64,000 nt of DNA. Source: Phorcysia thermohydrogeniphila. Its GTDB lineage: Bacteria > Aquificota > Aquificia > Desulfurobacteriales > Desulfurobacteriaceae. This document shows positions 4,986 to 10,903 of the stretch, one piece after another. Under the pieces are notes generated by a model. The model was not told where the DNA came from. It saw nothing but the letters and a program-made list of their open reading frames with translations, and did no database searches. The stretch covers positions 124,001-188,000 of the forward strand of contig NZ_SMFV01000003.1 of the NCBI RefSeq assembly GCF_004339575.1, written 5' to 3'. The translations under genes were made by a program, and so were the position numbers. Within the stretch, counting starts at the first letter, position 1. Each line of letters opens with the position of its first letter.

Positions 4986-6080
4986 TCATTCTATCACCGT
5001 TGAAGAAGTTTCGTGAGACTCCTCAAGTTCACTTTCGTTATTTGCCTCAGTAGTTCCTGTTAATTCCTCGTGTTCTCCTTCCATCTCACTTTCGGTAGTT
5101 GCCTCTGACGTTTCAGCGTGCTCCTCGTGTTCTCCCTCCATCTCATTTTCAGCAGTTACCTCTGACGCTTCAGCATGCTCCTCGTGTTCTTCCTCATAGG
5201 GTTCCATACAAATGACACCAGAATCTGGAGTCATGATGCAGAATTCTTCATGCTCAAGCTCTATAATCATATCCTTAGTTCCGTCACCTTCGTAAAGGTA
5301 GGGAATCCCCTCTTCCACTTTAAAAGTAACAGCATCATCTTCTACACCACTTCCAGAGCAGTTCGTTATTTCTCCAGTTATCGTTTTAGCGTTCTCGTCA
5401 GAACTGGTAATAGTAAAAGTGCAAGTTCCGTTTATTGAACCATCCTTAGACTTTAACAAAACTGTCTTTCCATCAAGATACTGCAATGTCTCTCCTAAAC
5501 GTTGATAAACCGACTTTTCTATGTGATTTTCAGCAACAGTAATCTTATCCTTGACTTCCTCTCTCAAGTCTTCAGGGATGGGTAAATTGTCCACCAAGGA
5601 CACGACATCAACGTCAGCAGAATGCTCCTCTTTTTCAAGGTCTACCTCTTCCTCAAGCTCATCCTTCAGCTTCTCAATAGCTTCTTCTTTTATCTTTATA
5701 CCGTTGTCAGGATTTCCATCCTCATCAAGGGAGATAAGAAAGGCAGAAATAAGTTCCATTTTCTTCTGAAGTTCTGCTGGATCGGTTGTATCATCAGAGA
5801 GAAGGTCAACGAGAGTCACGAGGTCTTGACCCTTTGTTTCACCTATAACAACCTTACCTACTTTGAAAACCACAGTATCTCCCGGTCTATACTTGAAGTA
5901 GCCGTTTTCGTCCGTTCTTCCTGTTATACCTGAGGAAGTTTCATACTCAACGTTTGCTACTTCACTGTCAACAAATTGACCAGTTAAAGTTGTAGACACT
6001 GAGCTACTTCCTCCACCTCCGCAACTTGCAAGTCCCAAAGAAACTAACACTGCGGTTGCTAAAAAAAGCTTTTTCCTCAT
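4986..6080 (-). CDS. Acidic lipoprotein with C-terminal His/Glu-rich tandem repeats
   Basis: Exported lipoprotein of 364 residues. The start at 6080 follows GGGAGGAGTTGGAG and gives a clear signal peptide with lipobox LASC (Cys20), then a Gly/Ser linker. The N-terminal domain resembles widespread repeat-lipoprotein starts (VDSEVANVEY, GITGRTDENGYFKY). The middle is acidic and rich in Leu-Glu helices. The C-terminus is a 19-residue repeat (EHEEHAE plus SEMEG-type units) in about four copies. The His/Glu composition suggests metal-ion or surface binding, but nothing proves it. It has no operon partner; function unknown. Confidence 0.8.
   Translation of the reverse strand: MRKKLFLATAVLVSLGLASCGGGGSSSVSTTLTGQFVDSEVANVEYETSSGITGRTDENGYFKYRPGDTVVFKVGKVVIGETKGQDLVTLVDLLSDDTTDPAELQKKMELISAFLISLDEDGNPDNGIKIKEEAIEKLKDELEEEVDLEKEEHSADVDVVSLVDNLPIPEDLREEVKDKITVAENHIEKSVYQRLGETLQYLDGKTVLLKSKDGSINGTCTFTITSSDENAKTITGEITNCSGSGVEDDAVTFKVEEGIPYLYEGDGTKDMIIELEHEEFCIMTPDSGVICMEPYEEEHEEHAEASEVTAENEMEGEHEEHAETSEATTESEMEGEHEELTGTTEANNESELEESHETSSTVIE
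5009..5212 (-). repeat. 57-bp tandem repeat inside the lipoprotein gene
   Basis: The pattern CCTCGTGTTCT (plus strand) recurs at 5066, 5123 and 5180, an exact 57-base period. A more diverged copy precedes it at 5009-5065 and the last copy is partial. The period is a multiple of three and encodes a 19-residue unit, so copy-number change keeps the frame. Confidence 0.85.
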
Positions 6081-6154
6081 CTCCAACTCCTCCCGTTTTA
6101 ACTTAACTTTGGTATTGATGTTAGCATTCAAAAGTGAAAATTTCGTGAAAAACC

Positions 6155-7423
6155 TTACTTTAAAAACTCATTTAGACGACCGTAAAACACGTAAGTATTA
6201 TGAAAGCCCCTGCGCTTATTCCGGTTGCTTCCGCGAAATATAACAACGTCTATTCCAAGTTTACGGCAAACAGGACAGCTGCACTCTCTCCAAACCTTAC
6301 TTTCTAGGAGCTCCCTGTATAGTTTCTCATACTTTCCTTCTTTAAACTCTTCCCTGAAAAAGAGTCTATCGTAGGTCATAACGTCCTCAATCAAAGCGTC
6401 AAGTTCTTTTACTTTTCCACTATCGTACTCCCTTAAAGCCCTTAAAATTTTTTGCTCCTGTTCATAAATATCAGAAGGACTAAGGTTAGACCTCATTATC
6501 TTTTTCTTAAGTCTTGGATTCCTGCTGTCTGGAACTCTTATAGAGGCGTACCATTTGTAGTCAATTCCTAAATAGTTTTCCTTAGCTTTAAGCCAAGCTT
6601 TTCTTAGGTAAGAGGCGCTGTCAAAACTAAAAATCCCCCACTTAACCATTTCTGGAAGGAGCTCCTCCCTTAAGACCCCAAGGAGGTGAACCCTCACTCC
6701 TTCAAGATCTACTTCCTCAGCAAGTTTTTTTAAGAGCTCTTTTATAAAGTCCGTCCTTCGGGGGACAAGTCCTCCAATGGCTATAAACGTGTAGCCGTAA
6801 CGAACAAGCTCTTTTACGCTGTCTATGTAGGTTTCAACCGAATACCCTTGCGCTGCCCCAACGGGGATAAAGGAGGCGTTCTTTGAAAGTTTTAAGAATT
6901 CTCTTGCGTTTTGCAGGCTAAGCTGTCTTCTTTCTTCAAGCTCATCAGTAGAGAGTGTAAGCTTTAGTTTTCCTTTTCCGGTCTCTTTTAAGTCAACGAA
7001 CTTAAATTCCTTTTCCTTTCCCCTCTCTACAGTTACGGTTTCACAGCAAATATGGTCAACGGATATCCCGTAGTCAAATCCAAGCAGGTGGTAGTGGGAA
7101 GCCGCCTTTTCAACAGAAAGGGGAGGACGTTTTTCATTTACGTAAGTAAAAGCTCCACAGTCGCCAAGAACTGGAAGTTTACCCTTTGTCCTTAAGTAAT
7201 CCTTTATGTTTGAAAAGCCCCTTATTTTCGGTTTTCCGTTTTCTTTTATGAGCTTTAGTTTCAGCTCAAACATTCCAAGGCTAACCAAGACTCCATCGTA
7301 GGGAGGAGGGGAGTATATTTCGTGGGCAAAGATGGAGTTTTCGTATCCCCCGCTGTAGCTGTCTGTTAAGGGGTCAAAGTCCTTATGAACCCAGTCTTCC
7401 CAGTAAGGCAGAAAGAATTTCAT
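6155..7423 (-). CDS. DpdA-type guanine transglycosylase (TGT-like)
   Basis: Member of the TGT superfamily that exchanges guanine for a 7-deazaguanine base. Its start (MKFFLPYWEDW) resembles the DpdA branch, which acts on DNA, more than tRNA-guanine transglycosylase. In the 422 residues I see GDCGAF (87-92; Asp88), IGGLVPRR (216-223), FDSASY with candidate nucleophile Asp268, and the zinc site Cys381, Cys383, Cys386 and His408. ATG 7423 lies 7 nt after the nuclease stop; a TTG at 7453 would add ten residues and overlap it. It is the last gene of a four-gene operon. DNA rather than tRNA as substrate is inferred from subtype and neighbours. Confidence 0.8.
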   Translation of the reverse strand: MKFFLPYWEDWVHKDFDPLTDSYSGGYENSIFAHEIYSPPPYDGVLVSLGMFELKLKLIKENGKPKIRGFSNIKDYLRTKGKLPVLGDCGAFTYVNEKRPPLSVEKAASHYHLLGFDYGISVDHICCETVTVERGKEKEFKFVDLKETGKGKLKLTLSTDELEERRQLSLQNAREFLKLSKNASFIPVGAAQGYSVETYIDSVKELVRYGYTFIAIGGLVPRRTDFIKELLKKLAEEVDLEGVRVHLLGVLREELLPEMVKWGIFSFDSASYLRKAWLKAKENYLGIDYKWYASIRVPDSRNPRLKKKIMRSNLSPSDIYEQEQKILRALREYDSGKVKELDALIEDVMTYDRLFFREEFKEGKYEKLYRELLESKVWRECSCPVCRKLGIDVVIFRGSNRNKRRGFHNTYVFYGRLNEFLK

Positions 7424-7430
7424 CGGCCAA

Positions 7431-8321
7431 TTATAGCACCTTGGGACAGTCAAACCTGAAGTCGCACTGCTTGCAGGTTTCCTCGTCTATTTCGGCAGGG
7501 AGCTCCCAGCTGTTCGTCTCCCGAGATTTTTCTATCCTCTCTACTATTCGTTTAAACTCAGAGATAAACTCCTTAACTTCCCTCACAGTCTCTTCTTTCT
7601 CAAAGTCAACAACGTAAATGGCGCTCTCTGGCCTTTTTTCACAGTTAAGGAGCTCATTCATAAAGTAGAGAACCGCCCTCTTTGGAAACTCCCCACTCCT
7701 TTCTTTAAAGAGGTAACCGTAGACGAACATCTGCTTTCTGTACCTTTCAAGCTTTTCCCTTCCAAAAGGTTTCCTCTCGTCCGGCCTTCTCATTCCCTTG
7801 TAGTCCCATATCTCAAGCGCCTCTCCATCCCTCTTTAAGACGTCAACTATCCCGTAGAGGATGAAGTTATCAAGCTCCTTTATTAGTTGGAGCTCTGCCT
7901 CAAGAACCGAACTAAAGAAATTCTTTCCCTCAATCCTGCAGAACTTTTTTAAAACAGAAAGGGCACTTTCTCTTGCCTTCTCACTTGAAGCCCTTACACC
8001 TTCAGCTTCCATTGCACTTTCTATTCTGTGAAAAATCTCCTCTATTACCTTTTCATCGGGAACTTCCCCGTTTTTTAGAAAGTAAAGGTGAGCTCTCTTT
8101 AAAAATCTGTGAATGATGCTACCGTACCACTCTTGAGTAGGGTTTGAGGGTGCGTAACCCAAGAACTTGTAAAAGCCGTACTGCCTCGGACAAATTGAGT
8201 AGGAAATGATGTCTCCAGTAATGCTGTAACGCCTCTTTAACTTCTTCCTTGAGGAGGTTAGGGGACTTCCAAGGTGTAAGGAAAACCTCTCTAAACCCTC
8301 TACCAGCTTCTCAATGTCCAC
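7431..8321 (-). CDS. Cas4/RecB-like PD-(D/E)XK nuclease with Fe-S cluster
   Basis: Predicted DNA exonuclease, 296 residues. The RecB-like core is visible as GSIIHRFL (His71), GIVDVL (Asp160), the ExxDYK-type motif E170/IWDYKG (Asp173, Lys175) and Q197xxxY201. Four cysteines placed as in AddB/Cas4 clamp an iron-sulfur cluster: Cys44 near the N-terminus and Cys283, Cys286, Cys292 at the end. It overlaps the helicase by 11 nt, so the two probably act together like AddAB on separate polypeptides. No cas1/cas2 is nearby, so Cas4 proper is unlikely. Confidence 0.85.
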   Translation of the reverse strand: MDIEKLVEGLERFSLHLGSPLTSSRKKLKRRYSITGDIISYSICPRQYGFYKFLGYAPSNPTQEWYGSIIHRFLKRAHLYFLKNGEVPDEKVIEEIFHRIESAMEAEGVRASSEKARESALSVLKKFCRIEGKNFFSSVLEAELQLIKELDNFILYGIVDVLKRDGEALEIWDYKGMRRPDERKPFGREKLERYRKQMFVYGYLFKERSGEFPKRAVLYFMNELLNCEKRPESAIYVVDFEKEETVREVKEFISEFKRIVERIEKSRETNSWELPAEIDEETCKQCDFRFDCPKVL

Positions 8322-10488
8322 CTCTTTCCCTCTCCCTTAGCTTTTCTCTAAACTTCCTTGAAAACTCCTCATGCCATTCTCTCTCAAAACCGGGTAGAGC
8401 GGCAAGCTTCCAAGGTTTACCCTCCTCAGGCGTTTCCTCTTCTGGCTTCCTAAGTATCAGGAGGCAGTACTTTGCCCTTGAGTATGCCACGTAGAACTTC
8501 CTGACGGCGTCTATCGTGTTCCTCTCCCAGCTTAAGTCCCTTCCAAAGAGCCTTTCAAGGCGACCGAGCTTAAAGTCTCCCCTGTGTTCCGTTAGGTCTC
8601 CAACTATTACAATGGGAAACTCAAGCCCTTTTGACTGGTGGAAGGTCATTATGGGAAACATATCCTCAGGAACGGACTCAACCTCTTTAAGGTCTGCGTC
8701 TTTCACGGAAAGGAGGTAGAGGAAAGTTCCGTAAAACTCACTAAGCCATTCCTTTTTAACTTTACCGTTTTCAACTGGAATCTCCCCTACCCTCTGAGAA
8801 AAGAGCGAAAGAAGCTGGCTGAACTTTGCCAAGTTTAAGGAAGTAAGGAGCTCCTCCTTAAAGCTCTTTAAAGGCTCAAACTGTAAGAGAGAGTAGAAAA
8901 TTTCCATAACATTAAAACTTTCTTCCTTTGACGATTCTACCTTTTCCTTCCAGTTTCTCACGTGCTCTTTCAGTTTCGGGGAGGCCTCAGAGTTAAAAGT
9001 TCCCTTCCAAAACTTTACCTTCTCGTCTATAACTTCCTGAAATTCTTCAGACGGGAAGATTTCGCAGAGAGCTCCAATAACCGTTGCCACTTCTTTTTGC
9101 ATTACAAGGGCTTTTGAGCGCGGGTTGTAAACGGGGATTCCTTCCCTCGTGAAAACCTCTTTTATGTAGCCTGCAAGCTTTTCCCCAGCCTTTGAGAATT
9201 CCCTCGTGCTCGGGAGTAAGAGAACAACGTCAGAGTAGTTTTTTATAACCCCTTTTCTTTTTAGCTCCTTTACGAAAAAGCAGCACTTTCTTGCAAGCTC
9301 CTCATTGCTACCTGCCTTTATCTCTACAACAGAATCGCCGAGAAACTCGTGACTTTTTATGCCGGATGCAAACTTTATTTTCTCCTTGTTCTTTACCGAG
9401 AGCCTTTCCCAACCTCTCCTAATCTCATTGTTAACTTTAAGGTGCTTTGTTATAAAGTAGTTTATGAAAGCCACTATTTCCCTGTCAGACCTGTAGTTCT
9501 TGCTAAGGTTTACTACCTTTACTTCTGTGCCAAACCTCTCTTTACATTTCTTTTCAAAGTCTATAAAACAGTCAACTACAGCTCCCCTGAACCTGTAGAG
9601 GGCTTGGTTATCGTCTCCAACAACCGTTATGTTTTTACTCCTTGAAGCAAGGGCAAAGTAAATTTCCTCGTCAAGGGGGTTCGTATCCTGATACTCGTCA
9701 ACCATAACCCAGTCTATTCCGGGGAAGAACTCACTCCCGTCCCCGTTAAGAAACCTTTTCCCCTCTTCAGACTCAAGAAACCGTAAAAAGAGTTCTTCAG
9801 CGTGAACGTAGTCAAGACGCTTTTCGTTCTTAAGTAGTTTCCTGTAGCGGACGTAGAGCTCTACAGCTTCCCCAAGTGTCCCCTTCTTCCCTCTGAGCCT
9901 CCTCCAGTCAACAAGGTTCTGAGGAATGAACTCAAATAGACGGCTCAAAACGTCAAGCTTTTGAAGGTAGAGCTCTTCTTGTGTAATCCCTTCCCTCTCA
10001 AGCTGGAAGAAGTCAAAGAAGTATCTGTACTTACTCCCCTCTTTTAAGTCCTGAAATTCCTTAAAAAGGATGATGTCTCTTTCAAAATCTTCCAAGAGCC
10101 TGTAACGTTCAAAACGGCTAAATTGAAATTCTTCCATCACCTTCAGGGCTAAGGAGTGAAGGGTTCCGGCGTAAATGTCGTAGGGTTCAAAGGAAAGTTC
10201 CTTTACTTTTTCTTTCAGAGCTCCGGCGTAGGTTACAAATCGGGAAAAGAACTCCTCAGAGGCCTTCTTTGTAAAGGTAACCAAGAAAATTGAACGGGGA
10301 TTCACCCCCTTAACGGCAATTAGGTAGAGAGCTCTGAGAACGATAACCTCCGTCTTCCCTGAGCCGGGACCTGCAACTACCTTTAAAGGCCCATCTGTAT
10401 AGGTTATGGCCTCTTTTTGCTCGTTGTTTAGCCTTTTTCCTCCAATTTCCTCTACGAGCTCAAAGAACCTTTCATCACCTAAAAGCAT
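8311..10488 (-). CDS. UvrD/Rep/AddA-like superfamily 1 DNA helicase
   Basis: ATP-dependent 3'-5' DNA helicase-like protein of 725 residues. Motifs in order are Q-motif NNEQKEAI (21-28), Walker A GPGSGKT (40-46), TFTKKAS (71-77), DEYQD (264-268), GDDNQALYRF (291-300), NYRSD (motif IV), FHQSKGLEFP (motif V) and YVAYSRAKYCLL (motif VI). It lacks a fused C-terminal nuclease; that domain is the next gene. It overlaps DUF6884 by 14 nt and the nuclease by 11 nt, which implies a complex or pathway. It is shorter than AddA and does not pair with an AddB homologue, so it is unlikely to be the housekeeping repair enzyme. Confidence 0.85.
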   Translation of the reverse strand: MLLGDERFFELVEEIGGKRLNNEQKEAITYTDGPLKVVAGPGSGKTEVIVLRALYLIAVKGVNPRSIFLVTFTKKASEEFFSRFVTYAGALKEKVKELSFEPYDIYAGTLHSLALKVMEEFQFSRFERYRLLEDFERDIILFKEFQDLKEGSKYRYFFDFFQLEREGITQEELYLQKLDVLSRLFEFIPQNLVDWRRLRGKKGTLGEAVELYVRYRKLLKNEKRLDYVHAEELFLRFLESEEGKRFLNGDGSEFFPGIDWVMVDEYQDTNPLDEEIYFALASRSKNITVVGDDNQALYRFRGAVVDCFIDFEKKCKERFGTEVKVVNLSKNYRSDREIVAFINYFITKHLKVNNEIRRGWERLSVKNKEKIKFASGIKSHEFLGDSVVEIKAGSNEELARKCCFFVKELKRKGVIKNYSDVVLLLPSTREFSKAGEKLAGYIKEVFTREGIPVYNPRSKALVMQKEVATVIGALCEIFPSEEFQEVIDEKVKFWKGTFNSEASPKLKEHVRNWKEKVESSKEESFNVMEIFYSLLQFEPLKSFKEELLTSLNLAKFSQLLSLFSQRVGEIPVENGKVKKEWLSEFYGTFLYLLSVKDADLKEVESVPEDMFPIMTFHQSKGLEFPIVIVGDLTEHRGDFKLGRLERLFGRDLSWERNTIDAVRKFYVAYSRAKYCLLILRKPEEETPEEGKPWKLAALPGFEREWHEEFSRKFREKLRERERGGH

Positions 10489-10903
10489 AGCCCAAGCTCT
10501 TTAGAACCTCCCCTAACTTTCCAATGTCACCCATATTACCGTAACCAAAAACTATGAACTCCTTTCCTAACTTCTCTGCAACCTTCTTTATACAGTCAAG
10601 GTAGTCCTTTCTTGCTCCACCCCTGTAGTAGACGATAACATCATAAGCCTTTAACCTTTCGGCGATTTCTCCTTCAAGCTCCCTACACCTTTCTTCTGAC
10701 ATAACTGCGTTGTAAGGAGAAATCATCTCATCCCCAGAAACAAGGCCGTAGCCTGCACTCAAGATAAAGAAAGGAACGCCGAGCTCCTTTGACTTCCGGT
10801 AAAGGTGCCTTATCCTTGCAGACTTGTAGAGCTCCCCAGCAGGTCTTGGTTTTTCTTCTTTTTTATTTCCGCAGGCCGTAACGAGGACAACCTTCTTTTT
10901 CAA
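10475..10903 (-). CDS. DUF6884-like protein (ArcS/YaaA-related Rossmann-like domain)
   Basis: A 142-residue single-domain protein. It opens with a strand followed by TACGNKK and then ELYKSARIRHLYRK, continues with ILSAGYGLV and SPYNAVM, and ends with a second alpha/beta half. The strand-Cys-Lys-Lys...Lys-Ser...His pattern recalls the PCSxxKPYxxSxxH core of archaeosine synthase ArcS, and DUF6884 proteins accompany DpdA in phages and bacteria. A role in tailoring the 7-deazaguanine base is therefore plausible but inferred. The start is TTG at 10903 after GAGGAAGGGAA. It is the first gene of the operon. Confidence 0.65.
   Translation of the reverse strand: MKKKVVLVTACGNKKEEKPRPAGELYKSARIRHLYRKSKELGVPFFILSAGYGLVSGDEMISPYNAVMSEERCRELEGEIAERLKAYDVIVYYRGGARKDYLDCIKKVAEKLGKEFIVFGYGNMGDIGKLGEVLKSLGYAFR

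Follow-up and report, generated by a model that had tools for sequence, protein, structure and literature searches.

A four-gene operon in the genome of the heat-loving bacterium Phorcysia thermohydrogeniphila probably constitutes a compact, mobile restriction-modification cassette related to the Dpd systems, in which 7-deazaguanine bases are inserted into DNA. The operon lies at positions 6155-10903 of the window, the stretch of 64,000 nucleotides that was analysed (NZ_SMFV01000003.1, 124,001-188,000), which belongs to contig C3 of the genome (labelled G000 here). This reading draws on the gene content and homology of the operon, the obligate linkage and fusion of its parts, the modularity of its nuclease arm, its mobility and the preQ0 (7-cyano-7-deazaguanine) synthesis genes of the genome. 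Its members, in their order on the minus strand, are as follows.

10475..10903, minus strand: DUF6884 protein, 142 amino acids, TTG start (PF21818, 5.6e-13)
8311..10488, minus strand: superfamily 1 (SF1) UvrD-like helicase, 725 amino acids (PF00580, 4.2e-48; PF13361, 5e-17)
7431..8321, minus strand: PD-(D/E)XK nuclease with a four-cysteine cluster of the Fe-S type, 296 amino acids (PF12705, 2.4e-20)
6155..7423, minus strand: DpdA DNA-guanine transglycosylase, 422 amino acids from the conserved ATG (NF041059, 372.8 bits)

An earlier note on this DNA had described four minus-strand genes with junctions of 14, 11 and 7 nucleotides, and the frames are indeed found at these places, their families confirmed by the profile matches above. 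The DUF6884 and helicase genes overlap by 14 nucleotides and the helicase and nuclease genes by 11, while the 7-nucleotide gap before dpdA applies to the ATG at 7423, the start conserved in relatives; the mechanically called open reading frame (ORF) reaches the first TTG at 7453. The ratio of non-synonymous to synonymous substitution (dN/dS) against the congener G001 is 0.07-0.11 for all four genes, similar to that of fmt and fur, two housekeeping genes nearby, which argues that these are maintained genes and not chance frames.

The same four-gene order recurs elsewhere, so that the lack of recurrence which would have spoken against the reading in the earlier note is not seen. Across a survey sample of 136 Aquificota genomes, DpdA of the window type is present in 17, and in seven of these, including the window's own, the split helicase and nuclease genes stand between DUF6884 and DpdA (G000, G001, G003, G004, G013, G014 and G017; in G013 a HerA fragment adjoins the pair). 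A fused helicase-nuclease occupies the same place in six (G006, G011, G015, G018, G020 and G021), three of which also have NurA-HerA, and NurA-HerA alone is found there in four (G052, G059, G103 and the contig-cut G102). Since NurA-HerA takes the place of this arm in some relatives and accompanies it in others, the modification pair of DUF6884 and DpdA can be regarded as constant and the nuclease arm as modular. Linkage is equally strict when viewed from the partners: DUF6884, present in 20 of the 136 genomes, adjoins a gene of the tRNA-guanine transglycosylase (TGT) superfamily wherever the contig spans the locus, with exceptions only at contig ends, the nuclease lies beside DpdA in all 13 genomes that have it, and HerA of the DpdA-operon subfamily occurs in nine genomes, all with DpdA. 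Chance co-occurrence in Aquificota is negligible, the p-values being inflated by shared ancestry. The alternative arms, NurA (PF09376) and HerA (PF01935), resemble known NurA-HerA resection and defence pairs but differ from them in being inserted between DUF6884 and DpdA. The Phorcysia genome itself has, outside the window, a stand-alone NurA-HerA (G000:C2:191428-195073; L129:5429-9074) that is 49% and 60% identical to the DpdA-operon pair of relatives; its nearest kin are the NurA-HerA of DpdA operons, and it may act in trans as a further nuclease arm. In three further genomes (G010, G068 and G106; L035, L067 and L105), DUF6884-NurA-HerA precedes a TGT-like protein that is shorter, at 318-338 amino acids, and lacks the zinc cysteines; this set is another system organised in the same way but more distant.

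The association extends beyond the Aquificota. Among public plasmids, 25 records carry a homologue of the nuclease and 32 a DpdA, and the two coincide in 6 records as against 0.01 expected. Rhizobium sp. WYJ-E13 has the series helicase-nuclease-DpdC-DpdB-DpdA-DpdB-QueE-QueC, in Scytonema the helicase-nuclease pair comes after DUF6884-DpdA and DpdB, and in Halobaculum a DpdA-like gene and que genes are its neighbours. On a Nostoc plasmid (L133:1-8987), the pair directly follows drmA, DUF1998 and drmC of DISARM, which suggests that the pair serves defence in general, its link to dpd being a strong one. On two cyanobacterial plasmids (L099:3832-9403 and L102:10933-16594), a second short TGT is flanked on either side by a DEAD/DEAH helicase, and a gene of the DUF6884-DpdA type lies near it. 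No relative was detected when viral contigs were scanned with the alignments of DpdA and DUF6884. One unverified phage record holds a dpdC-B-A-B-que set, and phage-like regions of Aquificaceae (L068:6122-7831, L069:10662-11525 and L070:6203-7063) contain a short TGT-like gene (L068 and L070) and genes resembling 3'-phosphoadenosine-5'-phosphosulphate (PAPS) reductase or QueC (L068 and L069).

The site of the cassette also varies. In the window its neighbours are fur on one side and a thioredoxin-like gene on the other, the latter being placed elsewhere in the rest of the family. In G003 it lies between a gene for a 244 amino acid protein and tlyA, two genes that are adjacent without a cassette both in G008, of the same genus as G003, and in the window's own genome. 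In G052 a cassette of the order DUF6884-NurA-HerA-DpdA (L030:1-16314) stands beside cas4 and cas1, with genes judged by eye to be cas3- and cas5-like on the other side. Given these different insertion sites and the empty sites in relatives, the cassette moves as a unit.

This distribution bears on the best surviving alternative, that the operon is a DNA-end repair machine in which resection of breaks falls to the helicase-nuclease and NurA-HerA, and DpdA and DUF6884 act on damaged or abnormal bases instead of marking self. NurA-HerA and nucleases of the AddAB/AdnAB type are known resection enzymes, and YfjM, a DUF6884 member of Bacillus subtilis, is among the proteins found to interact with abasic and RNA-base lesions (PMC11701544). 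However, presence is patchy, DpdA being absent from seven near-complete genomes of the same family (G002, G005, G007, G008, G009, G012 and G016), and the different insertion sites, exchangeable nuclease arms and link to plasmid dpd islands fit defence better. We consider repair unlikely.

The last gene of the operon is, as judged from its sequence, a true DpdA. The protein passes the NCBIfam equivalog NF041059 at 372.8 bits, where the cut-off is 200, and matches the PADLOC DpdA profile at 8e-109, and its sole strong relative of solved structure is a DNA-guanine transglycosylase (PDB 7ui4, E 1.5e-67), as compared with E of about 0.3 for tRNA Tgt structures. The earlier note had recognised a DpdA-type transglycosylase by two aspartates, Asp88 and Asp268, and a zinc-binding C-C-C-H set. 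Numbered from the ATG at 7423, the active-site residues are indeed D88 and D268, the zinc is bound by C381/C383/C386/H408 (CxCxxC...H), and all of them prove invariant across the family. In a tree of 38 rows, the window DpdA groups with bacterial DpdA of dpd islands and apart from tRNA Tgt, with moderate support along the DpdA part and some long rows; the clustering with tRNA enzymes that would have spoken against a role in DNA modification is thus not seen. The score against the Tgt family model TIGR00449 is 19 bits, under the cut-off of 47.6, and the match to PF01702 is weak, while the tRNA Tgt of the genome is a separate gene scoring 519.8 bits. The conserved active site also weighs on the idea of a modification-dependent, type IV-like system, with a nuclease arm that attacks 7-deazaguanine DNA and a DpdA that has some other role. 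Phages carry such DNA (PMC6884629) and so offer a plausible target, but an active DpdA coupled to a nuclease that attacks the modified DNA would lead to self-destruction, and this explanation strikes us as improbable. Least probable of all is that DpdA modifies tRNA or phage RNA in an RNA-level stress or defence response, since, although enzymes of the TGT superfamily usually act on tRNA and the PF01702 match leaves some room for this, the structural match favours the DNA enzyme so strongly, the genome has its own tRNA Tgt and the operon partners are DNA helicases and nucleases.

The DUF6884 protein is, again on sequence grounds, a short relative of DpdC. It matches the PADLOC DpdC profile at 7.2e-8, the canonical DpdC of an Enterobacter plasmid in turn matches PF21818, and a published dpd survey notes DUF6884 in DpdC (PMC11888242). 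The motifs CxxxK, LY and SAGxG are common to the DUF6884 protein and the DpdCs of Agrobacterium, Rhizobium, Enterobacter and a phage record, and its invariant residues include C11, K15, Y26, S49 and G53. In Scytonema, the DUF6884 domain forms the N-terminal part of DpdA itself, as detected by Pfam, and a domain of this type is N-terminal in DpdA of other cyanobacteria and Paenibacillus, as indicated by weak blast similarity and motifs. The reverse order is found in Tolypothrix (L107:7851-9269), where a single protein has a TGT domain followed by a DUF6884 domain. That DUF6884 and TGT are fused either way round speaks for their functioning together. The suggestion in the earlier note that the DUF6884 protein could modify the base is strengthened by the apparent DpdC relationship and these fusions; by analogy, the protein probably acts on the nitrile of 2'-deoxy-7-cyano-7-deazaguanosine (dPreQ0), hydrolysing it to 2'-deoxy-7-amido-7-deazaguanosine (dADG) or a related base, or else assists DpdA. 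The predicted structure (predicted local distance difference test score, pLDDT, 92.9) resembles the C-terminal domain of AF0587 (Z 11.4) and YaaA (Z 8.4) in VIA-align, and Pfam curators have proposed that DUF6884 is related to YaaA (PMC11701544). As no Foldseek match was obtained for the model at E < 0.001, and no solved relative was found by sequence, the fold link rests on the VIA-align Z scores of 8.4-11.4. A guess that the domain is the catalytic core of archaeosine synthase (ArcS) was left unconfirmed, since the ArcS paper gives no motif.

The remaining two proteins would form one helicase-nuclease module for unwinding and degrading unmarked DNA, a role suggested by their obligate linkage, fusions and fold. 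The SF1 motifs of the helicase are intact (Walker A GPGSGKT at 40, DEYQDT at 264), and its key residues are invariant across split and fused homologues; in the nuclease, H71, D160, D173, K175 and Q197 together with C44/C283/C286/C292 are invariant in 14 homologues. In six relatives the two are fused as a single protein of ~920-950 amino acids, which argues that helicase and nuclease act together. The nuclease model (pLDDT 88.4) matches ACE1 (Z 17.8), AdnA (Z 17.3) and AddB (Z 16.3). The earlier note had seen in the pair a two-subunit machine of the AddAB type. That a separate SF1 helicase and Fe-S nuclease work as a unit holds up; the AddAB identity does not, because despite the shared nuclease fold and Fe-S cysteine pattern, AddAB and AdnAB consist of two large helicase-like subunits of ~1,100-1,200 amino acids, whereas the operon has one helicase of 725 and one nuclease of 296. 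The closest published group, assigned by domain content, appears to be the UvrD-Cas4-like defence proteins, which likewise combine an SF1 UvrD helicase with a PF12705 Cas4-like nuclease, as fused in the six relatives, and occur beside DNA-modification enzymes (PMC5704561). They differ in that their published contexts are type III restriction-modification and Dcm/Vsr loci and that the window has two separate genes; the passages of PMC5704561 that were consulted report no link of these proteins to DpdA.

The substrate for DpdA would come from elsewhere in the genome. That the window holds no preQ0 synthesis gene, as the earlier note observed, is consistent with the location of QueC, QueD and QueE-like genes on contigs C6 and C1 (FolE lay outside this search), and QueC is present in 61 of 61 relatives searched. 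We propose that preQ0 from the queuosine pathway of the cell is exchanged by DpdA for guanine in host DNA, as its homology would predict, that the DUF6884 protein might then finish the base by converting the dPreQ0 nitrile, and that the helicase-nuclease would unwind and destroy DNA without the mark. The simplest idea of how the mark is sensed is that the base itself would block unwinding or cutting.

Several points weigh against this scheme. DpdB is required together with DpdA in Salmonella. In 20 of the 21 carrier genomes, no protein exceeds the cut-off of TIGR03187, the model for the DGQHR ATPase DpdB, and the single protein that does, in the window's genome, is the DndB of a complete dndBCDE operon. 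The operon has no separate reader protein for the mark; the DUF6884 protein is half as long as DpdC and shares homology with the N-terminal part of the latter, so that the base it would form is a prediction; and the p-values for co-occurrence take no account of shared ancestry or plasmid size. DNA modification and defence themselves we infer from these genomic patterns. On the other side, DpdB is dispensable in some clusters according to a review (PMC12839542), and the lack of a DGQHR protein over the cut-off in 20 of 21 carriers would mean that, if the system works as proposed, this group does not need it. With these points weighed, a Dpd-like restriction-modification cassette remains the probable explanation. 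More tentatively, at slightly less than even odds in our judgement, the operons represent an undescribed, DpdB-independent family of 7-deazaguanine restriction-modification systems. The constant part of these would be a DpdC-like and DpdA pair, served by interchangeable end-processing machines (helicase-nuclease and/or NurA-HerA), and self would be known by base modification during DNA resection, not by a sequence-specific endonuclease.

The dnd operon just mentioned lies outside the window (G000:C6:57751-62542; L139:7752-12543) and encodes complete phosphorothioation functions with a neighbouring DUF262-like protein. The genome would thus carry two exotic DNA modifications, dnd and the Dpd-like one.

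Among known systems, the Dpd islands (dpdA-dpdK) are most alike, sharing DpdA, the DpdC-type DUF6884 domain, preQ0 dependence and the logic of mobile modification plus nuclease. The operon departs from them in its lack of a dpdB-like gene, which the earlier note had remarked and which holds genome-wide, the one DGQHR protein of the window's genome being DndB, in the absence of any match to DpdD-K profiles among the four operon proteins (for the helicase, among the best 25 of 50 PADLOC matches), in its short DpdC-like protein and in its other nuclease arm, a UvrD-type helicase with an Fe-S nuclease and/or NurA-HerA. As two defining features, DpdB and dpdD-K, fail, it is filed as a Dpd-like variant. 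BREX-related capture (BRC) also joins a TGT/DpdA-like enzyme with HerA, but has PglZ, a BrxC-like protein and a STAND NTPase, none of which was found by Pfam among the four operon proteins, and was found without DpdB or DpdC. BRIGADE combines 7-deazaguanine synthesis genes with helicases and nucleases, but relies on YprA helicases, of which the operon has no counterpart, and has been seen only in haloarchaea. The base-swapping enzyme is of a known kind; the gene set, together with the interchangeable parts of its nuclease arm, appears undescribed: no description was found in the dpd literature searched, a provisional result because key dpd papers lay outside its coverage, nor any paper in the literature searched that brings together HerA, NurA and a transglycosylase. 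The published dpd survey would have missed the operon because it required dpdA plus dpdB (PMC11888242).

Downstream of dpdA lies a lipoprotein ORF (4986-6131, minus strand) with acidic C-terminal repeats and no Pfam match, which is not at this place in the congener; it was ruled out as a member of the system because DpdA directly follows fur there. The other flanking gene tested by Pfam encodes the thioredoxin-like protein. A promoter scan found 7 sites, where 3.8 +/- 2.4 would be expected by chance, none of them at the operon start, and the count of a terminator scan was below chance.

If the proposed scheme is true, this would be the smallest known 7-deazaguanine DNA-modification system, with four genes and no DpdB, and one that works at high temperature, so that both its chemistry and its self/non-self step would be directly testable with few proteins. 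DUF6884, an uncharacterised family, would be tied to the chemistry of DpdA, and DNA modification of this kind would join the known partners of UvrD-Cas4-like nucleases.

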